A stretch of DNA of 64,000 nucleotides from Turicibacter faecis (GTDB lineage: Bacteria > Bacillota_I > Bacilli_A > MOL361 > Turicibacteraceae), in NCBI RefSeq assembly GCF_037076425.1, contig NZ_AP028127.1, positions 1,456,001-1,520,000 of the forward strand. The letters are read 5' to 3'. Positions 8,113-47,561 of the stretch are shown piece by piece. Position 1 is the first letter of the stretch. Each line of letters opens with the position of its first letter. Under the pieces are notes generated by a model. It did not search any database and was not told the DNA's origin. It was given only the letters and a program-made list of their open reading frames with translations. The position numbers and the translations under genes were made by a program.

Positions 8113-8676
8113 TTAAAACTCTACATTTGGAGCCTGTTCCGCACCAGATTGTGCCTCAAAATAATCTCGTTTTTCTACACCCATTAAACGTGCAACGACA
8201 CTTGTTGGGAACTTACGAATTTTTGAGTTAAACATTTTAACCGATTCATTGTAACGATTACGCTCTACACTAATTCGATTTTCCGTTCCTGCTAATTCAT
8301 CCATTAATGTTTGGAATTGAGCATCAGCCTTTAAGGCCGGATAGTTTTCAGTAATCATCAATAACCTTGAAAGTGCACCTTCTAATTCATTAGATGCTTC
8401 AACCTTATCGTTGATTGTCTTTGCACCAGCTAGTTTTGCACGAGAATCTGCGATTGATGTAAAAACTTCTTTCTCATGCTCCATATAACCTTTTGTTGCA
8501 TTAACTAAATTGGGAATTAAATCAAATCGACGTTGTAATTGAGTTTCTACCGCAGCAAACTGTCCATCTACATTTTCCTCAGCAGAGACAATCCCGTTAT
8601 AACTTGAAATAAAAAAACCTGCTATAACCACAATGATAAATAAAATACCCATTATAATTGGTGCTGATTTTTTCAT
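8113..8676 (-). CDS. LemA family protein
   Basis: 187 aa. One N-terminal membrane segment (residues 5-26), then the helical LemA domain with VDGQFAAVETQLQRRFDLIP, ENYPALKADAQFQTLMDELA, GTENRISVERNRYNE and FNSKIRKFPTSVVARLMG, all diagnostic. Topology is one anchor with the helical bundle outside the membrane. The function is unknown in detail. First gene of a two-gene unit with the TPM-domain protein. Confidence 0.93.
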   Translation of the reverse strand: MKKSAPIIMGILFIIVVIAGFFISSYNGIVSAEENVDGQFAAVETQLQRRFDLIPNLVNATKGYMEHEKEVFTSIADSRAKLAGAKTINDKVEASNELEGALSRLLMITENYPALKADAQFQTLMDELAGTENRISVERNRYNESVKMFNSKIRKFPTSVVARLMGVEKRDYFEAQSGAEQAPNVEF

Positions 8677-35923: not shown

Positions 35924-35947
35924 AAAGCAGCCCCTCGGCTGCTTTTT
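35922..35947. terminator. terminator
   Basis: AAAAAGCAGCC / GGCTGCTTTTT with a 4-nt loop overlapping the YgjP stop codon. Confidence 0.85.
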
Positions 35948-36005
35948 ATGATTTTCTTTGATAAAAGCGTTACTTTCCATTTTTATTTTACTTTTTAAAG
36001 CTGTT

Positions 36006-36401
36006 TTAGTCCCGCAAATAGACGTCTACTTTAATTTTTAGCCAGCGGCCTTTCCATTCCTTCGATTTTAATTCTCCAAAAAGAAATTTTCCTCCGTCCA
36101 TTAAACGAGCGAATACTAAATTATCTCGCCTAGAGATATAGCCAATCTTATCGCCTGCGGGCGATTGAATAACAATGGCATAACTATCATGCGGATTAGT
36201 TGGTTCACGAAAAAAATCCAACCGACTCCCCACGTGTAGGGATGGTTCAATATCATTCATATTCTCAATATAGTGCGTCCCCGCCACCTGAATCTCAAGT
36301 AAAAAAATATCCCGTCCAAATGGCTTTATCGACGCCACCCTACGTCCTTTGGCGTGTAGTAACCTAATCATTCTAGCGAGTCTAACGATTATTTCCTTCA
36401 T
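36006..36401 (-). CDS. HIRAN-domain protein
   Basis: 131 aa from ATG 36401 (GGGGGAG site). After a basic helix, residues about 25-125 form a HIRAN domain: VAGTHYIENM, LHVGSRLDFFREPTNPHDSYAIVI, GDKIGYISRRDNLVFARLMDGG. The NPxDxxAI and GYIxR motifs are diagnostic. HIRAN domains bind DNA 3' ends in eukaryotic helicases; free-standing bacterial forms are thought to sense damaged DNA. It lies at the edge of the defence island on the same strand, but a terminator and its own promoter separate them. Confidence 0.85.
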   Translation of the reverse strand: MKEIIVRLARMIRLLHAKGRRVASIKPFGRDIFLLEIQVAGTHYIENMNDIEPSLHVGSRLDFFREPTNPHDSYAIVIQSPAGDKIGYISRRDNLVFARLMDGGKFLFGELKSKEWKGRWLKIKVDVYLRD

Positions 36402-36538
36402 GAGCTCTCCCCCATCAACTGCTTGATTCTCATTTGATAACTGCAAGTTACCACCTTATCACCCTAGTAAACGCGTGAAATAAAACAATAGGTCCACATG
36501 GCCTTTCCTCCATGATTCCACCCCTAAGTTTTTTCCTT

Positions 36539-36547
36539 ATTATAACA
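36539..36547 (-). promoter_or_regulatory. extended -10 element upstream of the HIRAN gene
   Basis: Minus-strand TGTTATAAT, leaving a leader of about 130 nt before the ATG at 36401. Confidence 0.5.
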
Positions 36548-36653
36548 TATCCTGGCTTATGAAAGAGAAAACTCATGATTATTTTCTCAACATCTCCCAC
36601 TCTGATGAAATGATAGCAATCTGCCATTCTCCCAACCTATTTAATAATTACAT

Positions 36654-36682
36654 AAAAAAGGCCCTCTCTCAAAGAAAGAACC
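36654..36682 (-). terminator. terminator of the Rpn array
   Basis: Minus-strand GGTTCTTTC / GAGAGGGCC stem (several G-U pairs), 5-nt loop and six T, after the last array gene. Confidence 0.7.
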
Positions 36683-36688
36683 TCTTGA

Positions 36689-36883
36689 TCAATCATTCAC
36701 AGTAAGATGTCGTAATTGACGAACTTCTTCAATTTCTACTCCCGTTGCTTTCGCAATCTGCTCATCATCTAAAACATCTAATAAATTCTTGGCAATTTCT
36801 CTATCGATTTGTTTCCTAACTTGTTCAAGCCCTTGCTTGACTCCCTTTTCAAACTCCCTTTTAAGGAGCTCATCTAATGTCAT
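36689..36883 (-). CDS. RpnS-like C-terminal protein, copy 3
   Basis: 64 aa from ATG 36883. It has the same GGAGGTGGAATAT-ATG-ACA start block as the other copies. The core IAKNLLDVLDD is shared with the full-length Rpn, while the segment before it (DELLKREFEKGVKQGLEQV) and the end differ. Upstream, in the stretch homologous to codons 188-199 of the nuclease, this copy has picked up TGA and other changes, so it can no longer be a fused C-terminus. The short frame from the internal ATG is fully kept. Probable role: binding to and blocking the nuclease, by analogy with E. coli RpnS. Confidence 0.7.
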   Translation of the reverse strand: MTLDELLKREFEKGVKQGLEQVRKQIDREIAKNLLDVLDDEQIAKATGVEIEEVRQLRHLTVND

Positions 36884-36991
36884 ATATTCCACCTCCAACC
36901 TTTTATCTTGCTTCATCCGGTTAACCCTATCATGTCACTGATGCATAGACTCAGATGTTATTTGAGCGATACTTTTGTTAGAGAAGATTCA

Positions 36992-37189
36992 TTAGTTTTC
37001 ATCTCGTATTCGTCGAACTTCCTCAATCGTCAATCCTGTTTTTAACGCAATCGTTTCGTCATCTAAAACATCCAATAAATTATGGGCGATTTCTACTTTT
37101 TCCTCTTCCTTTCCTTGTTCAATTCCTTGCTCAATCCCTATTTTAATGCCTTTTTGGAGTTCTCGTTCTTTAATCTCCAATAATGTCAT
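36992..37189 (-). CDS. RpnS-like C-terminal protein, copy 2
   Basis: 65 aa from ATG 37189 with the conserved GGAGGTGG site 8 nt upstream. Nearly identical to copy 1 except near the end (IRDEN against LRNEKNN). The start has MTLLEIKERELQKGIKIGIE, a longer Gly/Gln/Glu segment than in the full-length gene, then the shared KVEIAxNLLDVLDDETIAL core. The open frame also extends upstream to GTG 37252 over the homologous HQLHDR stretch, but that has no ribosome site. Confidence 0.72.
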   Translation of the reverse strand: MTLLEIKERELQKGIKIGIEQGIEQGKEEEKVEIAHNLLDVLDDETIALKTGLTIEEVRRIRDEN

Positions 37190-37292
37190 ATATTCCACCT
37201 CCAACCTTTTATCCTGCTTAATCCGATTGACCCTATCATGTAGCTGATGCACGAGTTCGGACTTTTTGGTGAGGGAGATTTTTAGAAAAAGA

Positions 37293-37496
37293 TTAATTAT
37301 TTTTTTCGTTTCTTAATCGCCGAACTTCCTCAATCGTCAGTCCTGTTTTTAACGCAATTGTTTCATCATCTAAAACATCCAATAAATTCTGGGCGATTTC
37401 TACTTTTTCCTCTTCCTTTCCTTGTTCAATTCCTTGCTCAATCCCTATTTTAATGCCTTTTTGGAGTTCTCGTTCTTTAATCTCCAATAGTGTCAT
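37293..37496 (-). CDS. RpnS-like C-terminal protein, copy 1
   Basis: 67 aa from ATG 37496 with GGAGGTGG 8 nt upstream. Residues about 31-60 (KVEIAQNLLDVLDDETIALK and on) match the C-terminus of the Rpn nuclease just upstream, whose stop codon lies about 105 nt before this ATG. The first 30 residues carry the alternative segment found in copy 2. The duplicated block begins at the nuclease codons for TKSELVHQ. No nuclease motif is present, so it cannot cut DNA; an RpnS-type inhibitor is the best guess. Confidence 0.72.
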   Translation of the reverse strand: MTLLEIKERELQKGIKIGIEQGIEQGKEEEKVEIAQNLLDVLDDETIALKTGLTIEEVRRLRNEKNN

Positions 37497-37601
37497 ATAT
37501 TCCACCTCCAACCTTTTATCCTGCTTAATCCGATTGACCCTATCATGTAACTGATGCACGAGTTCAGACTTTGTTGAGGGGGATTTTTATAAAAAAATCA
37601 A

Positions 37602-37778
37602 TTACTTATTTTCGTTTCGTAATCGTTGGACTTCTTCAATCGTCAGTCCTGTTTTTAACGCAATTGTTTCATCATCTAAAACATCTAATAAATTCTTGGC
37701 GATTTCTACTTTTTCCTCTCTTTTCCCCTCTATTTTTCCATCCTCAAATTCTTCTTTAAAAATTTCGTATAATGTCAT
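37602..37778 (-). CDS. internal RpnS-type gene inside the Rpn frame
   Basis: In-frame ATG 37778 (codon 215) preceded by GGTTGGAGGTGGAATAT, an optimal ribosome site 8 nt away, would give a 58-aa protein equal to the nuclease C-terminus. The same site and ATG are kept in all three downstream copies, so the site is unlikely to be chance codon use. Expression is inferred. Confidence 0.6.
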   Translation of the reverse strand: MTLYEIFKEEFEDGKIEGKREEKVEIAKNLLDVLDDETIALKTGLTIEEVQRLRNENK

Positions 37779-38420
37779 ATATTCCACCTCCAACCTTTTA
37801 TCTTGCTTAATCCGATTGACCCTATCATGTAACTGATGCACGAGTTCGGACTTTGTTTGAGCAACATATGTATCTGTTGAATTCTCAACATAGCTTAATA
37901 ATTCCTTCATCTCCTCGTCCACGTCATCCATAACCCCACGTGTATTTAAAAAGATTTTTGTTGTCTCATCATTTAATTTTAGCGATTGATCTTCTATACA
38001 ATAGTTTTCAAAACTGTAAATATGTCTCCCTTTGCCAAAAGGATCAAACGTGCAAATAAAGATGACAAAACTTTTACAAAGTTCTAAATAATCACTGCCC
38101 TTTTGAATAAAGTCCAAATCGACGCTTCCTTGATAATATCGACTCCTCTTCGCTAGGTTTTTATGTTTTCCTCTTTGCATCTCTACATTATAAATGGTTT
38201 CCTCTTCATCTTGAACATAAATGTCTAACCGAATCGCTTTACTCTCCATTACTAAATCAATGGACTTTTGGCTTTCCACAAATTTAATTTTTTTAATTTT
38301 AACCTTCAAAATCTTTTCTAGCACTTGCCGGCAAACTTCAGCATCGGAAAAGACCTTAGAAAACAAAAAGTCATCCGATAAATTTAATTCTTGTAACGTT
38401 CTTTTTCGTTGATAGGGCAT
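37602..38420 (-). CDS. Rpn-family PD-(D/E)XK nuclease (recombination-promoting nuclease, full length)
   Basis: 272 aa, full family length, with an AGGAGG site. N-terminal LSDDFLFSKVFSD, then the PD-(D/E)XK core: Asp66 in IRLDIYVQD, Glu80-x-Gln82 in YNVEMQ, and SRYYQGSVDLDFIQKG. Linker about 185-214, then the C-terminal oligomer segment. Family members are Mg-dependent DNA endonucleases linked to transposase_31/PDDEXK_2 and reported as toxic anti-phage proteins. Internal codon 215 is ATG with a strong ribosome site, matching the RpnL/RpnS arrangement of E. coli. It has its own promoter and lies downstream of a type I restriction system. Confidence 0.9.
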   Translation of the reverse strand: MPYQRKRTLQELNLSDDFLFSKVFSDAEVCRQVLEKILKVKIKKIKFVESQKSIDLVMESKAIRLDIYVQDEEETIYNVEMQRGKHKNLAKRSRYYQGSVDLDFIQKGSDYLELCKSFVIFICTFDPFGKGRHIYSFENYCIEDQSLKLNDETTKIFLNTRGVMDDVDEEMKELLSYVENSTDTYVAQTKSELVHQLHDRVNRIKQDKRLEVEYMTLYEIFKEEFEDGKIEGKREEKVEIAKNLLDVLDDETIALKTGLTIEEVQRLRNENK

Positions 38421-38436
38421 GTAACGAACCTCCTCT

Positions 38437-38445
38437 ATTATAGCA
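38437..38445 (-). promoter_or_regulatory. extended -10 promoter of the Rpn array
   Basis: Minus-strand TGCTATAAT ends 16 nt before the rpn ATG, so the mRNA leader would be very short, starting within or next to the AGGAGG site. Confidence 0.55.
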
Positions 38446-38507
38446 TATTCAGGATTTCAAATAATCCTCTCTCTTTTAAATACGCTAATTAAAGGCGATT
38501 TCCTTTT

Positions 38508-39071
38508 TTATTTTTTCATTTCAATCTTTGTTCGATTGATTTCTTCTACTATTGTCTTCACCTCTTCATCCCGCAAATCATCAATCCGTATCATGTTATG
38601 ATGGATTCCATTGAGCGATGTCCCTAACGAAATCCCTCTCTCTTCATCGATAATCCAAAATCGATCATGCAAGTTTTCAGAAGAATAGACTTTTATTTCA
38701 CATCCTACTTTTTGACTAATTGTGTTGTATAGGTTTTTATTATAGTTCTCCTCATTTATGACTACCGTTATCTCCTTAGGATTTAACCGCGTCAATACAT
38801 CAATCATTAAATCTTTATAGGGTTTATTAAAAGTGCCAAAGAAATAGGGGTCTATAATTAATAAACGACTCCCTGTGACCCCCTTACTCATTAAATAGGA
38901 AATCAGTTTATCTTTTCTTTCCTCCTTGCTCCCTACTAATATTTCGTGAGACACCTCCTGATTTCCCACAAATAAATCTTGATAGAAGCTCTCAACTGAA
39001 TGGAAGAGAAATCCACTATTATCTGTTCATACGATTCTTTGTTCAACAACATCGGGTAAAAATACATCCAT
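38508..39071 (-). pseudogene. PLD-like (MIT-C type) phosphodiesterase gene with in-frame TGA
   Basis: One frame of 188 codons begins at ATG 39071 (AAGGTG site) and is interrupted at codon 15 by TGA (39027-39029), where TGG (Trp) would restore it. The rest contains a phospholipase-D-like domain: LLIIDPYFFG, ITVVINEEN and ENLHDRFWIIDEERGISLGTSLNG, where HDR..SLGTSLN corresponds to the HxK/HxR..GSxN active site. The domain is often found in defence loci. Only one such motif is present. The part after the TGA could restart at GTG 38969 but has no ribosome site. Confidence 0.65.
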
Positions 39072-39165
39072 CACTTATCACCTTTTCAAATAAGACTTAG
39101 ATGTTTTTAATATCCCCCGTTGACTTGTACTTATTACCGATTTCTTCTGTCATCTTGACCACAAA

Positions 39166-39192
39166 AGAAAAGGCTAGACCTTTTTCGTCTAG
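39166..39192 (-). terminator. terminator of the hsd operon
   Basis: Minus-strand GCTAGAC / GTCTAGC stem with 7-nt loop and T-rich tail, 18 nt after the hsdS stop. Confidence 0.75.
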
Positions 39193-39210
39193 CTAATTCG
39201 TGACTTACTA

Positions 39211-40461
39211 TTAAATAAACATTTGTTGTAACAACCCTTTTTTTAGTTTATTATAAGATTCCACCTTTAAAGATTCAAATTTAATCTTATTATCAATTTG
39301 GATTAATAAATCTGTTATTTTAATTTGCTCTTTTTCACACGGAATATTATACTTTATATCTTTTATGTCCTTTACATAAATATGCTTAATAGTTGTTCCT
39401 GAAACCTTTCTTATAATTAAAGATTTAAAATGATTAATTTGATAACTTAAAAATATACCATTTATATATTTCTTCGGTCTAAGAACATTTATGTCCCCCC
39501 CTAAACAAACATCGTCAACTAGAATACAACTTGCTGTAGCTAATCCTTCTGGTGTTACATCTGACGTAGGCATTAATACATCATATTTTTCAGACTTAAA
39601 CCCTTGATCTTTTAAACATCTACTTTTTACAACATTTATAACCTCATCATACTGTGTAAATAATTCACCATATAGTACACATGGAATATCCTCATTATCA
39701 GATAAGTCTGATTTACTTAACCCATTCCCTTTAAAAAACTCAACTATGTTTTCTAACTTTTTTTCTTCCCACTCAGGGTATTTCTTTCCATTCTCATCTT
39801 TAAACCTTAGTTCTTGTGAGAAGATTTTTTGCATGAGCCCTTTTTTATAATTCTTTAATTCTTCCACCTTTTCGGTTTGAAGTTCTATCTTTTTATCAAT
39901 TAAAGAAAAGAAAGAGGCTATTTTTTCTTGTTCCTCTATAGTAGGGACATAAAATTTCATTTGTTTTAATTCTGTTTTATTAAATTTAGGTTGACCACTT
40001 GCTCCGATTATTTGTACCAATTGTTTATGGAATGCTTTCGTATTAAATAAATAATATATATATTTTGTATTATTTATTTCACTTCTTAATAAAATTGCGT
40101 TTGGTCCCAAAACATTATTTTCACTTGGTAATTTCTCGGGTTCTACATAATAAGATTCTCCTATATTCGCACCTATATTAGGTAATATAATTGAATCTTC
40201 ATTCAGATTTACTCTATACAAAAAATTATATGCTTTTTCATCAACAAAGATAAAATCCTTATTATTAAAATTACTCTTTAAATCAATAGTTCTTACTAAT
40301 TGAGCGAAATTTTCACTATTGTAATAAGTTACACTATTTCTAATATTTTCAAAACTTCCTGCTGCAACGTAATCAGTAATTATATCACATATCTTTTCTA
40401 TTTTATTACTTTCCCACTCTCCACTAAACTCTTTAAATCTAAGATTTGGTACTTTTTTCAT
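39211..40461 (-). CDS. hsdS: type I restriction system specificity subunit HsdS
   Basis: 416 aa with the standard two-TRD layout. TRD1 about 1-160; first conserved helix region about 160-205 (PTIEEQEKIASFFSLIDKKI); TRD2 about 220-380; second conserved region at the end (KEQIKITDLLIQIDNKI ... LKKGLLQQMFI). It sets the DNA sequence recognised by the HsdM/HsdR complex. Visibly more AT-rich than hsdM and hsdR, as TRDs often are. AGGAGG site; 15 nt downstream of hsdM. Confidence 0.95.
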   Translation of the reverse strand: MKKVPNLRFKEFSGEWESNKIEKICDIITDYVAAGSFENIRNSVTYYNSENFAQLVRTIDLKSNFNNKDFIFVDEKAYNFLYRVNLNEDSIILPNIGANIGESYYVEPEKLPSENNVLGPNAILLRSEINNTKYIYYLFNTKAFHKQLVQIIGASGQPKFNKTELKQMKFYVPTIEEQEKIASFFSLIDKKIELQTEKVEELKNYKKGLMQKIFSQELRFKDENGKKYPEWEEKKLENIVEFFKGNGLSKSDLSDNEDIPCVLYGELFTQYDEVINVVKSRCLKDQGFKSEKYDVLMPTSDVTPEGLATASCILVDDVCLGGDINVLRPKKYINGIFLSYQINHFKSLIIRKVSGTTIKHIYVKDIKDIKYNIPCEKEQIKITDLLIQIDNKIKFESLKVESYNKLKKGLLQQMFI

Positions 40462-40476
40462 TGTATTCGCCTCCTC

Positions 40477-42021
40477 TTATAGACCTAGTTCTTTTAAGTA
40501 AGATGATAGTTCTTCGTCGACTTGGGCGATTTCTCGGTCAATTTCTGCAATGCGTTGGCTGACGGCCTGTAAATCGACGGGCTCTTCCTCTTCAAATGTA
40601 TCGACATAACGAGGGATATTTAAGTTGTAGTCATTTTCTTTGACTTCATCGAGTGTTGCCACATAAGAATATTTATCAATCATTTCACGATTTAAATACG
40701 TTTCGACGATTTTGTTCACGTGTTCTTCTGTTAAAACATTTTGATTTTTGCCTTTATCAAACTCATTGGACGCATCAATAAATAAAATATCTTCATTATG
40801 TTCACGGCATTTTTTGAACACTAAGATGACCGTTGGAATACTGGTTCCATAGAAAATGTTCGCCGGTAATCCAATGACGGCATCGAGGACGTTACGCTCC
40901 TCAATTAAATATTTACGAATGACCCCTTCAGCTGCCCCTCGGAATAAGACACCATGAGGGAGCACAACCGCCATCGTTCCTTTATCGTCTAACTGATAAA
41001 TCATATGTTGAATAAACGTAAAGTCCGCTTTTGATTTAGGGGCTAGTTTTCCATACGCACTAAAACGTTCATCATCTAAAAACTTCGCATCCCCACTCCA
41101 CTTCGCCGAATAAGGCGGATTGGCCACGATCGCCTCAAAACGTTCGTCTAAATGGTGCGGGTGCTCAATGGTATCATCGTTACGAATATCAAAATTCATG
41201 TAGTTCACGCCGTGTAATAACATGTTCATACGCGCTAAGTTATACGTCGTTGCCGTTAACTCCTGACCATAAAACTTACGAACATTCGCTTCACGCCCAA
41301 CACGTAATAATAAAGAGCCTGAACCACACGTGGGGTCATACACATTCTTTAAGTCTTTTTTACCAGCCGTCACGATTTTAGCTAAAATTTTAGACACTTG
41401 TTGTGGCGTATAGAACTCTCCCGCTTTTTTCCCGGCATTCGCCGCAAACTGACCGATTAAATACTCATACGCATCCCCTAACACATCAATTTCGGAATTT
41501 TCATAAGCAAATGGGATATCAGCAATATCCGCTATCACCTTTGCGATTAACGCCGAACGACTTTTTACATCACGCCCGAGTTTTGAAGACGTTAAATCCA
41601 TATCATCAAATAAATGGTCAAAATCTTGTTGACTTTCATGCCCAATCGTTGATTCCGTAATATTATTAATCGCCCCTTGCAACACTTCAATATCAAACGT
41701 ACGCTCTTCAATTAACCGAAGTAACGATGAAAATAAGTACTTCGGTTCAATGAAATATCCGATATCACTAATTAACTCCTCCGATAGCGCCTCACGATAC
41801 TCCTCATCTTGCCACGCCTCTTCATAACTAATTTCGTCTTCTTCTAATAACTTCGCCACCCGTTGCTCTACATTTTCCGATAAATAACGGTAAAAAATTA
41901 AACCTAAGATATAGTTTTTAAAATCATATGCCTCCATCGTTCCGCGTAACGTATTAGCAATCGACCATAAACGCGCATGTAAATCCGCCTGCTGTTGTTT
42001 TTGAATTTCACTCACTGTCAT
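40477..42021 (-). CDS. hsdM: type I restriction system methyltransferase HsdM
   Basis: 514 aa. N-terminal HsdM helical domain (LRGTMEAYDFKNYILGLIFYRYLS), then an adenine-N6 methyltransferase fold with the SAM motif YDPTCGSGSLLLRVG (about 228-242) and the catalytic NPPYSAKW (about 304-311). Methylates the host recognition site and is needed for restriction. AAGGAGG site; starts 1 nt after the stop of the single-TRD gene. Confidence 0.97.
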   Translation of the reverse strand: MTVSEIQKQQQADLHARLWSIANTLRGTMEAYDFKNYILGLIFYRYLSENVEQRVAKLLEEDEISYEEAWQDEEYREALSEELISDIGYFIEPKYLFSSLLRLIEERTFDIEVLQGAINNITESTIGHESQQDFDHLFDDMDLTSSKLGRDVKSRSALIAKVIADIADIPFAYENSEIDVLGDAYEYLIGQFAANAGKKAGEFYTPQQVSKILAKIVTAGKKDLKNVYDPTCGSGSLLLRVGREANVRKFYGQELTATTYNLARMNMLLHGVNYMNFDIRNDDTIEHPHHLDERFEAIVANPPYSAKWSGDAKFLDDERFSAYGKLAPKSKADFTFIQHMIYQLDDKGTMAVVLPHGVLFRGAAEGVIRKYLIEERNVLDAVIGLPANIFYGTSIPTVILVFKKCREHNEDILFIDASNEFDKGKNQNVLTEEHVNKIVETYLNREMIDKYSYVATLDEVKENDYNLNIPRYVDTFEEEEPVDLQAVSQRIAEIDREIAQVDEELSSYLKELGL

Positions 42022-42022
42022 G

Positions 42023-42607
42023 CTATTTTTCCTCCTTCAACGTTCGAATCATCCATTCATTCATTAACTTTTCTTCTAATCTTTGTTTTTCAATCCATAG
42101 TTTTTTTCGCTGATGACCTAATCGGTAAACCGTTGCTATTTTCTCCTGAGTTGCGACGCCTGGGAGATCAATCGGTAATTCCCTTATTTTTTGCATCGAT
42201 AAGGCTTGAAGACTTGAGCCTTGTCTTTCAACTGCTAACCGTCGTTGAATATCCGGATGCTCATTAAAATACCACGCCACATACTCGGGGCAAACCCCTT
42301 CGTGACATTCCAAATAAACAAAATTAATCGGAATCACGTACCCTTCATACGCATCTGTCACCACAAAGGCCCGAGGGGCCGTTAACCCAATCAAAACCAT
42401 TCCGACCTTTGCTAGTGGAACTTCTCGAATATATCGATCACTCACTAAAACTTCTTGGCCTTCTACCTGTAAATGAGGGTCTACTGTTACCTTATTTAAC
42501 TCTTGAATGGTAAACAATCGCCTTGGATAAGCTTTTTCATTCGGTTTTGCCTTAATACGAGCGAGCGTTGCTCCTATTGAGAGTTTACCCACTTCTTCTA
42601 GCTTCAT
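42023..42607 (-). CDS. single-TRD HsdS-like protein
   Basis: 194 aa, half the size of a normal HsdS. It holds one target-recognition domain (LEEVGKLSIGATLARIK ... ITLxP-like LPIDLPGVATQEKIATVYR) and one conserved helical arm ending KQRLEEKLMNEWMI. The arm is the part that binds HsdM. It sits between hsdR and hsdM in the same operon. It could dimerise to give a second specificity, tune the system, or be a duplicated remnant. Full HsdS is encoded further down. Confidence 0.82.
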   Translation of the reverse strand: MKLEEVGKLSIGATLARIKAKPNEKAYPRRLFTIQELNKVTVDPHLQVEGQEVLVSDRYIREVPLAKVGMVLIGLTAPRAFVVTDAYEGYVIPINFVYLECHEGVCPEYVAWYFNEHPDIQRRLAVERQGSSLQALSMQKIRELPIDLPGVATQEKIATVYRLGHQRKKLWIEKQRLEEKLMNEWMIRTLKEEK

Positions 42608-42695
42608 ACTTTTTCACCTGCTTTTCATACTAAAAGCATAACATATCACTCGAATAGTGTCAAAAGAAAAAGTGCTTTTGTTAAAAAAAGCACTT

Positions 42696-45446
42696 TTAAT
42701 TATATTTATTCGTATGATCCACAATAAATTCTTTCACTTTTTTGACCTTACGTTTTTTAGCTAACAATTTATCGACGACAGCGTCCGAAATTTCTTGATG
42801 ATTCAAAATACCCGCATACTGATACTCAGCCACAAATTCTTGAATGGTTTCCTCATTCAGGTTCACTTCCTCAGCAAAATATTTAACTTCTTCTTGTCGG
42901 GATTGTTCTTCAAACGCATAGTAAGCTTCGTCAATCGAATCTTCTGGCGACAACGTTGGAATCACTTTATTTAAGAAAGATTTTAATAAATCTACTTTTA
43001 GACGTAACTCCTCATTATCCGCTCGATCAAGTTCTGCTATAATCTCTTTAATATCTTCGTCACGCTGTTTTGTATCTGTTAAATCAATTTGACGAATCAA
43101 GTTCATGATATAGCTGACATTAATTTTATCGGTATGCATGATTTCAATACAAAAATCAAGATCGGCTAAAACAGACACCTTTTCTCCTTCGGCGCGTTTC
43201 ACCTCATCATAAATTAAGAAATACTTACTTTTAAAATCTTGGTACGTCTGCTCGGAAATCCCCACCGTCTCTTCATTAAACTCAAACTCCGTAAAGGTCT
43301 CAAGTTTCACTAAAGCCTTGGAAAGTTCACGGAAACTTAAAATAAATTGCCGTTTTTCTTCCTCGGTTTGAAGCCCATCCACCTCTTGTGGCGATTTAAC
43401 AAGCTCATACAAGCGATTTAACTCTGCCTCAAACAAATCTAAATAATAACTGTAACTTCGCATTAACACCGTATCTGTATTATTCGTATCCGAGAACAGG
43501 CGGATTGCATCATCCGTATTTTCTTTTAAATTACGATAGCAGACAATATTTCCATAAGGCTTCGTCGTTTTTTGCACGCGATTCGTTCGGGAATAAGCTT
43601 GCAATAAATCGTGATATTTTAAATTTTTATCAACATAAAGCGTATTTAACGTTTTCGCATCAAACCCTGTTAAGAACATATTCACGACTAATAAAATATC
43701 AATTTGAGCATTTTTCACCCGCTTCGAGACATCGGAAAAATAATTTGAAAACGTGTCGGTCGAATAATTCGTATGGAAAAGTTGATTATAATCAGCAATC
43801 ATCCGCTCTAAACTATCGCGCGAATGTTCATCACGCCCTTCACTGTCTTCATTCGCTCCAAATGTAAAGATCCCTGCAATTTTGAGACGATGATCCATCG
43901 CTTTAAATGCATCATAATATTTAATTAACATCGGAATACTTTGCACCGTAAAAATCGCCGTATATTCACGATTACGCGTTTTAGCGTCATGATTTGCGAT
44001 AATGTGTCGCGCGATTTCTTCAATACGCGTCTCATTCATAAAAACTTCATCCGTATTAATCGCATGAACCTTCGTATCATCCATTTCATCGTAATTTCCA
44101 CGAATCGTATTAATATACTCGACCGAAAAACCAAGGACATTTTGATCATTAATCGCATCTTTAATTAAATAATGGTGCAAACACTTTTCAAAAAGATCAG
44201 CTGTTACCCGCCCGTCCTGACTCTTATTCTCTTCAAAACGTGGCGTTCCAGTAAACCCGAAATATTGTGCCTGATGAAAATGTTTATTAATGGCTTTATG
44301 CATATCTCCAAACTGAGAACGGTGGCACTCATCAATAATAAAAATCACTTTCTCATTCCGATACTGGTCCATAATTTTTTCATACCGCGGGGACTTCACC
44401 GCATTCGCCATTTTCTGAATCGTCGTCACGATTAACGGACGGTTAATATCTTTAATTTGTTGAACCAATTTATCCGTTTTATCCGTCGTATCCACAGAAT
44501 CCGGTTCAAATTTATTAAACTCCTTAATCGTTTGACTATCTAAATCTTTACGGTCAACTAAAAAGAAGACTTTCTTAATCCCTGGTTCATTCGCCAAAAT
44601 CTGACTGGCCTTAAATGAAGTTAACGTCTTCCCACTCCCTGTCGTATGCCAAATAAAACCATTATTATTTGTCTCAAGGGCACGTGTCACCAACGCCTCT
44701 ACCGCATAAATTTGATAAGGCCGCATGACCATTAATAATTGATCCGTTTCATTAATCACCATATAACGCGCAATAATCTTCGAAATTTGACACTTTTCCA
44801 AGAACGTAAACGCAAAATCGCCCAATTGACTAATCCGCTCATTATTCACATTCGTCCAAAAGAACGTTTGACTATACATCAATTCCTTATCCGTATTGGC
44901 AAAATACTTCGTGTCAACCCCATTACTGATGACAAAGATTTGGATATAGCGGTAAAGACCTTGATAGGAATGCTTGCGATAACGATCAATTTGGTTAAAC
45001 GCCTCCTTCATATCTAGTCCGCGTCGTTTCAACTCAATTTGAACAACGGGTAACCCGTTAATTAATACCGTTACATCGTAACGATTCGTATATTTTCCAA
45101 CAACCGTCGTTTGAGCCGTCACTTGAAATCGATTTTTACACCAATGCAAGCAATCAAAAAATTCTAAGTAAATTTCAGAACCATCCTCGCGTTCAAGCAC
45201 AAACTTATCCCTTAAAATTTTCGCACTCTGGAAAACACTCTTCCCTTCTACATGGCGCATGACGCGTTCAAACTCTTTATCCGTTAAAGGGACACCGCCC
45301 AATTTTGACTCATTATGGAGTGATAACTGCTTTCTAAAATTTGCGACTAACTGCTCTTCGTCCGCGATACTGACCTTTTCATACCCCAAATCGCACAATT
45401 GAGCAATCAATTGTTTTTCTAATTCTGCTTCGCTTTGATAAGACAT
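42696..45446 (-). CDS. hsdR: type I restriction system endonuclease/translocase HsdR
   Basis: 916 aa from ATG 45446 (ATG 45449 and TTG 45452 are alternatives; GGGGG site). N-terminal PD-(D/E)XK nuclease with VVQIELKRRGLDMKEAFNQI, then a superfamily 2 motor: Walker A WHTTGSGKTLTSF, DExx box FIIDECHRSQFGD, motif III FGFTGTP, and late motifs LLVVNMFLTGFDAKTLNTLY and YSRTNRVQK. A helical C-terminal domain follows. All catalytic motifs look intact, so restriction is likely active. First gene of the operon hsdR, single-TRD, hsdM, hsdS. Confidence 0.96.
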   Translation of the reverse strand: MSYQSEAELEKQLIAQLCDLGYEKVSIADEEQLVANFRKQLSLHNESKLGGVPLTDKEFERVMRHVEGKSVFQSAKILRDKFVLEREDGSEIYLEFFDCLHWCKNRFQVTAQTTVVGKYTNRYDVTVLINGLPVVQIELKRRGLDMKEAFNQIDRYRKHSYQGLYRYIQIFVISNGVDTKYFANTDKELMYSQTFFWTNVNNERISQLGDFAFTFLEKCQISKIIARYMVINETDQLLMVMRPYQIYAVEALVTRALETNNNGFIWHTTGSGKTLTSFKASQILANEPGIKKVFFLVDRKDLDSQTIKEFNKFEPDSVDTTDKTDKLVQQIKDINRPLIVTTIQKMANAVKSPRYEKIMDQYRNEKVIFIIDECHRSQFGDMHKAINKHFHQAQYFGFTGTPRFEENKSQDGRVTADLFEKCLHHYLIKDAINDQNVLGFSVEYINTIRGNYDEMDDTKVHAINTDEVFMNETRIEEIARHIIANHDAKTRNREYTAIFTVQSIPMLIKYYDAFKAMDHRLKIAGIFTFGANEDSEGRDEHSRDSLERMIADYNQLFHTNYSTDTFSNYFSDVSKRVKNAQIDILLVVNMFLTGFDAKTLNTLYVDKNLKYHDLLQAYSRTNRVQKTTKPYGNIVCYRNLKENTDDAIRLFSDTNNTDTVLMRSYSYYLDLFEAELNRLYELVKSPQEVDGLQTEEEKRQFILSFRELSKALVKLETFTEFEFNEETVGISEQTYQDFKSKYFLIYDEVKRAEGEKVSVLADLDFCIEIMHTDKINVSYIMNLIRQIDLTDTKQRDEDIKEIIAELDRADNEELRLKVDLLKSFLNKVIPTLSPEDSIDEAYYAFEEQSRQEEVKYFAEEVNLNEETIQEFVAEYQYAGILNHQEISDAVVDKLLAKKRKVKKVKEFIVDHTNKYN

Positions 45447-45705
45447 CATCAAGCCCCCTTATTTTAATCGTCTCCCTTACCACCCACATCATCGCTAGAT
45501 TGGCATAAGAGAAATTAAGCTTTTCTACATTAACTAACCTTTTTTTCAGTCACTTTATATTTAATATCGACAAAATAATAAAATTTACTCTAAATTCCTA
45601 TTTATCCTTCACCTAAATAGGCCCTACCATAATTCTTATACTAGTGTACCACAAAAGTAATAAAAATTTAAGATTCCAGTGTTCTCTGCACCTTTTTAAC
45701 CTCAA

Positions 45706-45740
45706 AAAAACAGGCTCACTCTAAAAAGTAGCCTGTTTTT
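45706..45740. terminator. terminator
   Basis: AAAAACAGGCT / AGCCTGTTTTT, 11-bp stem with a 13-nt loop, after the lipoprotein gene. Confidence 0.75.
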
Positions 45741-45744
45741 CATC

Positions 45745-46554
45745 TTACGGTTGAAGCGGACACTCAAAAATAAAGGTTTCAAATTCCACGTTATAATCAT
45801 CTGATAATCCTTCAAATACAAATCGAACGTCACCGCCATTTAAATCAATCGCCGGAAATGTCACAACCCCTTCAGAAACAACTCCAGGTAGGATATCATC
45901 ACTGATTTGTTCATATTGAGCTTCCCAGTTTTCTTCGTAATCGTACTGTTTATTTCCTTGTTGCACCATCGAATTGTATGGATAGAACTGAATATTCGTT
46001 GAAGATTCATTTTCTATTTTTAAATATGCGCGTGTTTCACTTTTCGCAAATTCTACGCGTTCAAGCGTCATTTTATATCCATTCTGATTCAATTCTTGAT
46101 TAAGTTCGACGGTCTTCATAGACGGAGCAAAAGCCGTTGCATAATCGACTTTCTCCACCTGTGTTGCTGCTACACCCGGCATCGTCATCGTTACTCCTAA
46201 AAGATTTTCTCCTTCAACTTCATCGCCAATCACACCTGTGACTCGAACAATATCGTCAATACTTACCTCCAAGTTTGGATCATCGATACTTACGAGCGTA
46301 TTTCCATCATTTCCCCCATCAAGAATAAACACTTGCAAGTAAGTCCCATTCTTATCACGGGATGGTTCTGTAAAAACCTTACCATAAAACTCAACTCGGC
46401 GTCCCTTATAGTCCTTCGTATTCGTATAAATTTGTTGAAACTCTTCCGATGTTACAACAGGCTCTTCTGCCTTCTCTTTTTCTTCCTTTGAATGACCACA
46501 TGCCGTAAAAAGCAATAAAGAAAGCACAACTGAAAAATATAACCATCTTTTCAT
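45745..46554 (-). CDS. lipoprotein with OB-like and DUF4352-like domains
   Basis: 269 aa from ATG 46554. Signal peptide with lipobox LLLFTAC (Cys about 19), then a charged linker. Residues about 35-125 are OB-fold-like (YKGRRVEFYGKVF, DIVRVTGVIGDEVEG). Residues about 150-268 resemble the DUF4352 immunoglobulin-like domain (MTLERVEFAKSETRAYLKIEN, GVVTFPAI). Anchored outside the cell membrane. Function unknown. Confidence 0.8.
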   Translation of the reverse strand: MKRWLYFSVVLSLLLFTACGHSKEEKEKAEEPVVTSEEFQQIYTNTKDYKGRRVEFYGKVFTEPSRDKNGTYLQVFILDGGNDGNTLVSIDDPNLEVSIDDIVRVTGVIGDEVEGENLLGVTMTMPGVAATQVEKVDYATAFAPSMKTVELNQELNQNGYKMTLERVEFAKSETRAYLKIENESSTNIQFYPYNSMVQQGNKQYDYEENWEAQYEQISDDILPGVVSEGVVTFPAIDLNGGDVRFVFEGLSDDYNVEFETFIFECPLQP

Positions 46555-46768
46555 TTTCACACCTCACTTGTATTACAATGCCATCAATCTATATTCTATG
46601 TTTTTTCATGGATACCTATCCCCTTTTTAAAACCTATTTCATCAAACAATTAAATTCTTTGAATAAATCCATGACCTATCTTCCATAATAAAAGGGTAGA
46701 TACGGGATATCTAACATCTACATTGGGAATCTTCCCTGATTCCCACGCTAAAATATCTTTCACTGATA

Positions 46769-46800
46769 AAAAATTCACCTCGCCATGAGGTGAATTTTTT
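46769..46800. terminator. bidirectional terminator
   Basis: AAATTCACCTC / GAGGTGAATTT with A- and T-runs, next to the ASCH gene stop. Confidence 0.8.
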
Positions 46801-47240
46801 TATGGTTTATAAACGACCTGAAACTCTTCACACACGACGAGCATTTCCTCGTGAAATTGCAGTCCTATTTCTAAAAGTTCCTTAGAAAAAAATTCGTGAT
46901 GAGCGCTGCGCCAAGATTCTAGCGATCGATCCTCTTCTCCTTCTTTAAAGGCGTGCTCCTCAGTTACTTCATTAAATGGAACGATGCTTACCTTCATCGT
47001 CTCCACGATACAAACAGCCTCCTCTCGGCCATTTAAAATAACGTTATAATCAGAAACTTGCGGTAACCGCTCCTCCCCTCTTTCATACCAAACATAAAGA
47101 GAACTCGTCGCAGTTTTTTGCCCTCTCATCACTAAATTAGCTAACTCATCCGCCTCCACGGCAAAGGCCCATGTCTGATAGTCATCTCCCGCCTCCTGAT
47201 TCAATGAGTGATAACTCTCCCATAATTCCTCATGCGTCAT
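46800..47240 (-). CDS. ASCH-domain protein
   Basis: 146 aa from ATG 47240 (GGGGGA site). Hallmarks: WAFAVEADELANLVMRGQKTATSSLYVWY (GxKxxTxS near the N-terminal side), AVCIVETMKVSIVPFNEVTEEHA and a C-terminal EEFQVVY strand. ASCH domains are PUA-like beta barrels thought to bind RNA or modified nucleosides; some members (YqfB) hydrolyse N4-acetylcytidine. Exact role here unknown. Confidence 0.88.
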   Translation of the reverse strand: MTHEELWESYHSLNQEAGDDYQTWAFAVEADELANLVMRGQKTATSSLYVWYERGEERLPQVSDYNVILNGREEAVCIVETMKVSIVPFNEVTEEHAFKEGEEDRSLESWRSAHHEFFSKELLEIGLQFHEEMLVVCEEFQVVYKP

Positions 47241-47260
47241 TCCATCCCCCTCTTTCAAAT

Positions 47261-47299
47261 AAAAAAAGACTTCTAATCACGTTCATTAGAAGTCTTTTT
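47261..47299 (-). terminator. terminator of tRNA-Arg
   Basis: AAAAGACTTCTAAT / ATTAGAAGTCTTTT, 14-bp stem, seven T on the minus strand, 38 nt after the tRNA. Confidence 0.85.
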
Positions 47300-47336
47300 C
47301 CTTATATGATTCCTTGTATTAGGACTTTTATCAAAG

Positions 47337-47413
47337 TGGCGCGCCTGGCAGGAGTCGAACCCACAACCCTCTGATCCGAAGTCAGATGCTCTATCCAATT
47401 GAGCTACAAGCGC
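47337..47413 (-). tRNA. tRNA-Arg (UCG)
   Basis: 77 nt on the minus strand. Acceptor GCGCUUG / CAGGCGC, D-arm GCUC..GAGC, anticodon loop CUUCGGA (UCG, reads CGA), T-loop UUCGACU, encoded CCA. Confidence 0.95.
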
Positions 47414-47521
47414 TAATTAAATTATCAATTTCCTTACATTTATGATTATATCGCTTTTTTTTCCTTTGGTCAACCCATAATCCCTATTTTTTTAAAATCT
47501 TCGGTTGAGGGTTTACCTTTT

Positions 47522-47546
47522 TAAAAGCCCTCGAATTGATCGAGGG
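47522..47546 (-). terminator. weak terminator after the SDR gene
   Basis: Minus-strand CCCTCG / CGAGGG stem, 7-nt loop, followed by CTTTTAAAAA. Confidence 0.5.
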
Positions 47547-47561
47547 ACTTTGAATCTTCAC

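Follow-up and report, generated by a model that had tools for sequence, protein, structure and literature searches.

Three free-standing rpnS-like genes with non-matching tails downstream of an rpn nuclease gene in Turicibacter faecis

The closest described relatives of the locus reported here are the rpn genes of Escherichia coli, and the parts of Zhong et al. (2023; PMC10327210) on which we draw provide several points of reference. The E. coli genes rpnE and rpnC each have a free-standing rpnS gene downstream (ypaA, or rpnES, after rpnE and rpnCS after rpnC), and RpnES, the product of the free-standing gene, has been detected as a protein. RpnS dimerises via its first helix, and the addition of a single repeat to either RpnC or its RpnS abolishes neutralisation, which is restored when both are made to match; this repeat-matching rule rests on experiment with one protein. 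The same passages note rpn tail fusions and downstream copies, and leave open what drives the rapid variation of Rpn tails, the mechanism behind it, and the origin of the small genes downstream. A second point of reference is the rhs genes, in which displaced tips are left downstream of the intact gene, each of them behind a core repeat (Jackson et al. 2009, PMC2935791).

The window, by which we mean the whole 64,000-nucleotide stretch of T. faecis DNA that was analysed, carries on its minus strand a full-length Rpn PD-(D/E)XK nuclease gene, rpnL (37602..38420), whose 272-residue product was identified by its matches to TIGR01784 (E 1.1e-34; 120.5 bits, against a curated cut-off of 52.1) and PF12784 (E 3.2e-13; 50.4 bits, cut-off 27.4), together with an alignment of 49 homologues and a structure model. 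The 3' side of rpn is occupied by three direct repeats of approximately 300 bp, with start-to-start spacings of about 306, 307, and 294 bp, and each contains a small gene on the same strand: copy 1 (37293..37496, 67 aa), copy 2 (36992..37189, 65 aa), and copy 3 (36689..36883, 64 aa). The three products each align to the C-terminal part of TIGR01784 only, at E-values of 5e-8 to 3e-6 that are far beyond chance. The start signal AGGTTGGAGGTGGAATATATGACA is present four times, once within rpn and once per repeat, and its ATGs open reading frames of 67, 65, and 64 aa in the small genes and of 58 aa inside rpn, the last being the intragenic rpnS (37602..37778, minus strand). The form GGAGGTGG-AATAT-ATG is identical in all three small genes and at the conserved internal start of rpn. 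An earlier note on this DNA had described the nuclease gene, the repeats with their three small genes, and a common ribosome site and ATG, and its coordinates are correct. It also equated the small genes with the C-terminus of the nuclease; they do not, however, reproduce the present rpn tail, from which they differ in a helix segment that is 8, 8, and 4 residues longer in copies 1, 2, and 3, respectively.

The nuclease of RpnL looks intact, because D66 and E80 (within VEMQ) are invariant in the 49 homologues and both are present. An AlphaFold2 model computed from 49 sequences (pLDDT 89.6) predicts a mixed alpha/beta N-domain followed by a long helix, residues 208-244, and then by two short helices. 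Met215, the methionine of the internal start, lies inside the long helix, and RpnS would therefore consist of most of this helix plus the helix pair. Structural scores are modest, with a Z of 5.9 (rmsd 3.5 over 105) between the N-domain and EndoMS as an example of the PD-(D/E)XK enzymes, and an E of 0.006 for the best Foldseek match; a search of PDB sequences returned nothing for RpnL, and for copy 1 only chance-level rows. The last 45 residues resemble helix-turn-helix domains, including those of TrpR (Z 6.7, rmsd 1.1 Å over 45 residues) and gamma-delta resolvase (Z 5.3, rmsd 2.6 over 41 residues), but middling Z scores are common for such small helical parts. Taken together with the dimerisation of E. 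coli RpnS via its first helix, described in the passages cited above (PMC10327210), this resemblance could suggest that the copies tune toxin release or operon transcription, either by pairing with intragenic RpnS or RpnL tails in mixed dimers or by binding DNA via the helix-turn-helix. We regard this as very improbable: the surroundings of the rpn gene showed no inverted repeat resembling an operator, and mixed dimers should be weakened by the length mismatch described below.

The internal start of rpn is well conserved. Met215 is kept in at least 90% of the homologues in the 49-homologue alignment, and of 30 homologues with an EVEYM-like motif, 29 use GAG for its first glutamate, a codon that belongs to GGAGGT. 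Elsewhere in the same 30 genes GAG is used for 288 of 895 glutamates (32%), giving a p of 3e-13 that is optimistic in that kinship among the genes is ignored. This codon bias indicates that the internal Shine-Dalgarno sequence is under selection in the clade and hence that the internal start is real there, in agreement with the earlier description of rpn as a toxin-antitoxin-type gene with an internal start. In a separate rpn locus (L051, 4001-4843), a stop codon splits the nuclease domain from the tail, which forms a gene of its own with GGAGGTGGAATACATG; by its sequence this is a natural split of toxin and antitoxin.

Counted directly from the start methionine to the asparagine before LLDVLDD, the helix segment has 29 residues in RpnL and its intragenic RpnS, 37 in both copy 1 and copy 2, and 33 in copy 3, such that the copies exceed the RpnL tail by two, two, and one four-residue repeats. 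(Aligning software inserts a gap close to the copy 3 end, giving a difference of +8 from RpnL, where the direct count to LLDVLDD gives +4.) These numbers bear on one suggestion of the earlier note, that the copies add antitoxin for the same RpnL and that the toxin is thereby held more tightly. The common head, the same strong ribosome site, and a probably common transcript would suit a higher dose, as would the production of free-standing RpnES in E. coli (PMC10327210). However, all three copies differ from their neighbour in repeat number, the same is true of nearly every other locus read, and in the published case, according to the same passages, a mismatch of one repeat abolished neutralisation. 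An added dose thus seems improbable, and the data disfavour it and favour displaced, non-cognate tails. A second suggestion, that the copies are a set of variants, holds in so far as the middle segments differ; we recast the set as tails left by tail exchange.

Nucleotide comparison of the units reveals a mosaic. The block up to and including the start is 65-67/69 nt identical between the copies and rpn, and 63-67/69 nt identical among the units, while the middle segments are alike in copies 1 and 2 only. Between rpnL and copy 1 the upstream block matches at 67/69 nt and the 3' part at 95/102 nt, with dissimilar middles of 57 and 81 nt; copies 1 and 2 have identical middles (81/81 nt) and match at 93/102 in the 3' part. 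The identity of copy 1 is 94% to copy 2 and 59% to copy 3. Recombination among the units or with other rpn genes would be the natural cause of this pattern. Derivation of the copies from other rpn genes of their own genome is not supported, as the best matching tails there lack the MTL head. Five rpn paralogues of this genome (L005, L007, L025, L026, and L027; G000 C1 near 799156, 1965141, 1161960, 1056909, and 1919164, respectively) have near-identical pre-tail stretches (e.g. ETIREAKD.LL.LSCNE) and different tails, and tail decoupling is therefore also seen among the paralogues of one genome.

Such a mosaic could also be debris, with the units being functionless leftovers of tandem duplication and deletion at the rpn 3' end that are partly open by chance. 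Rpn loci are recombination-prone and fragment-rich in related genomes, drift would produce the repeat mismatch, and upstream of copy 3 the old rpn reading frame persists as a remnant broken by a TGA. Yet all three reading frames, ribosome sites, and ATGs are intact, and the 55 nt upstream of the starts are 89-98% identical among all units, including copy 3, where this stretch is conserved though no longer coding. Copies 1 and 2 differ by seven synonymous and four nonsynonymous changes (dN/dS 0.14, Fisher p 0.002), and copy 3 differs from copies 1 and 2 with dN/dS of 0.19 and 0.25. These low values support selection without proving it, because recombination with functional rpn donors could also lower dN/dS. 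Similar intact units moreover recur in distant groups, and we consider debris to be rather unlikely.

Related loci were sought in several samples. Among the eight genomes (n=8) that represent the order, G001 has an rpn gene at 55% identity with one free-standing gene of equal length. The congener G003 has a decayed full-length rpn with the head of copies 1 and 2 (44/48 nt, no gap) and not that of the window RpnL, so that in a sister lineage this head has been part of a full-length rpn. No intact full-length rpn with exactly the copy-1 or copy-3 tail was found among the relatives examined. In a wider, biased sample of 195 distinct rpn genes read with their flanks, 24 have a candidate C-terminal relative downstream, some of them distant or doubtful and the clear cases aligned, and many Firmicutes carry free-standing rpnS genes downstream of rpn. 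The earlier note had proposed counting the units of this layout in related genomes: single units are widespread, two-unit arrays occur at L049 and G005:C182, and three units, the most seen at any locus read, occur in the window. The novelty of free-standing copies as such is consequently not supported, a single downstream rpnS having already been published for E. coli (PMC10327210, in the parts considered here).

The decoupling of tail and nuclease domain is clearest in Lachnospiraceae, where two unrelated tails, A and B, occur on nuclease domains up to 97.6% identical (L037 vs L042), and where domains with different tails are as similar as pairs with a common tail. Both tail types are found on RpnL and on free-standing genes, and it is often the alternative tail that a free-standing gene bears (L041, L036, L058, L049): the rpn of L041 ends in A and is followed by B, L036 is the reverse, and L049 has A, then B, then A. 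Length and tail register agree in only two of 23 L/S pairs from other organisms than E. coli, namely L021, in a congener, with equal lengths, and one G005 pair that is within one residue and has a diverged end. The equal length at L021 counts against the displaced-tail reading. Across 19 further loci and 16 L/S pairs from E. coli, almost every case is mismatched either in the number of repeats or in the tail as a whole.

Searches of mobile DNA yielded little, with no relative in the viral contigs searched with RpnL, none in phage records searched by tblastn with copy 1, and eight plasmid records, all below 60% identity. Three short virus protein families of unknown function, phrog_5416 (66 positions), phrog_22015 (68), and phrog_12274 (138) of PHROG, show weak similarity (E 1e-3 to 1e-5) to copy 1, to copy 3, or to the RpnS region of RpnL and could be phage-borne RpnS mimics, for which the tblastn search of phages with copy 1 gave nothing. 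A remote match of copy 1 to the PADLOC 'putative invertase' profile (E 5e-5) says no more than the Rpn family assignment does.

E. coli provides a population check. The rpnE locus is present in 5,371 of 5,426 genomes, and the S sequence occurs at 8,145 places with a maximum of two per genome counting the intragenic one, so that at least 2,774 genomes have both an intragenic and a free-standing copy; no S array was found in any of the 5,426 genomes searched. Among the rpnE alleles read, repeat counts match in none of 12 distinct L/S pairs (K-12 has 27 vs 31 residues to ALRML), and for rpnC they match in none of four. Random pairing predicts only 0.58 matches among the 12 rpnE pairs, and the repeat mismatch could thus stem from neutral repeat drift; active avoidance of matches was rejected on the same ground. 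In those rpnE alleles that have no free-standing gene, RpnE carries the free-standing type of tail, as expected if a deletion between repeats had moved the downstream tail onto rpn. At four rpnC loci (L312, L313, L314, and L316) the free-standing S is without the usual methionine (QTLAQW for MTLAQW), and its start must therefore lie further upstream.

The array ends in a hairpin of 14 bp followed by a U run (36656..36686, minus strand; -15.4 kcal/mol, z -3.0), a predicted intrinsic terminator located after copy 3, and folding of the spacers between the units shows nothing comparable. A promoter scan found no promoter-like site near the unit starts, though the same scan missed the hairpin seen by folding. 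A single transcript of rpn and array up to the terminator is the simplest reading, although the passages used here (PMC10327210) report internal transcription starts for E. coli rpn genes. Gene matches and comparison with congeners place the locus in an accessory defence island (35924..47561) composed of a HIRAN gene, the rpnS array, rpnL, a PLD-like gene, and type I restriction-modification genes. The flanking YgjP-like and SDR genes are 11.6 kb apart here vs 0.3-0.9 kb in three congeners, from which the 11.6-kb island is absent at this site. The stand-alone HIRAN-domain gene (36006-36446, E 7e-16) is directly downstream of the array. The PLD-like gene (38508-39067) adjoins rpn and has weak matches to VPA1262_N_dom and PADLOC PDC-S05; a separate short reading frame is just upstream of it, and its 5' end looks truncated or broken. 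In the type I restriction-modification locus (39211-45452), hsdM lies between two hsdS genes, one full (416 aa) and one half-size (194 aa), at 39211-42607, a layout that could permit a change of specificity via recombination.

We propose, with a probability of roughly 0.5, that this is an Rpn toxin-antitoxin operon in which C-terminal displacement has taken place, and that the displaced tails have been kept as orphan antitoxins and as recombination donors. The variable dimerisation-helix segment of rpn would be swapped by recombination in the conserved stretch that surrounds the internal start (about 60 nt plus ribosome site and ATG). As the exchanged tail is common to the toxin and the intragenic antitoxin, one exchange would alter both, and the swap could not leave an unmatched pair. 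Former or donated tails would stay behind as small genes 3' of rpn, probably cotranscribed with it as far as the terminator, and would presumably be translated to yield orphan RpnS proteins. By the published repeat-matching rule, copies 1-3 should be poor at neutralising the present RpnL; they may instead cover RpnL variants with matching repeats, either the former version or related proteins brought in by mobile DNA, and could act as donors for further tail exchanges.

A broader proposal, which we put forward tentatively, is that Rpn loci in general are tail-exchange systems, in which free-standing arrays would be orphan antitoxins and a store of donors, recombination at the start site would switch toxin and antitoxin specificity in one step, and the orphans would guard against former or incoming Rpn toxins. 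Free-standing copies that turn out to be non-cognate would be orphan antitoxins, much like orphan immunity genes, and in the Rpn toxin-antitoxin family a single recombination event would then make a new matched pair. Neither the mismatch between neighbours nor the decoupling of tail from nuclease domain is discussed in the passages of Zhong et al. covered here (PMC10327210), and the pattern was not found in the literature searched.

With E. coli RpnA-E, as described in the same passages (PMC10327210), the locus has in common a PD-(D/E)XK gene, an internal ribosome site and ATG, a small C-terminal protein whose first helix has variable four-residue repeats, a helix-turn-helix-like tail, and a defence-island context. 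The ypaA/rpnES and rpnCS layout, in which a small gene directly 3' of rpn has its own ribosome site and the C-terminal head of rpn, is repeated in all three units. E. coli rpnE, however, has one free-standing unit, whereas the window has three in a single operon; these fall into two types, and none matches its own nuclease. As in the rhs arrays of dissociated tips (PMC2935791), a core stretch is repeated before differing tips 3' of an intact gene, and a further rhs-type feature has a counterpart here, in that tails are common to full-length genes and fragments of relatives (A and B of Lachnospiraceae; the copy-1 head in G003). The E. coli rpnE alleles fit a tail swap by deletion and may be a case of displacement within one locus. 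The rhs tips are entirely dissimilar, whereas the units in the window differ mainly in the helix and its repeats, and unlike an rhs tip, the exchanged Rpn tail is itself the antitoxin, common to toxin and antitoxin alike.
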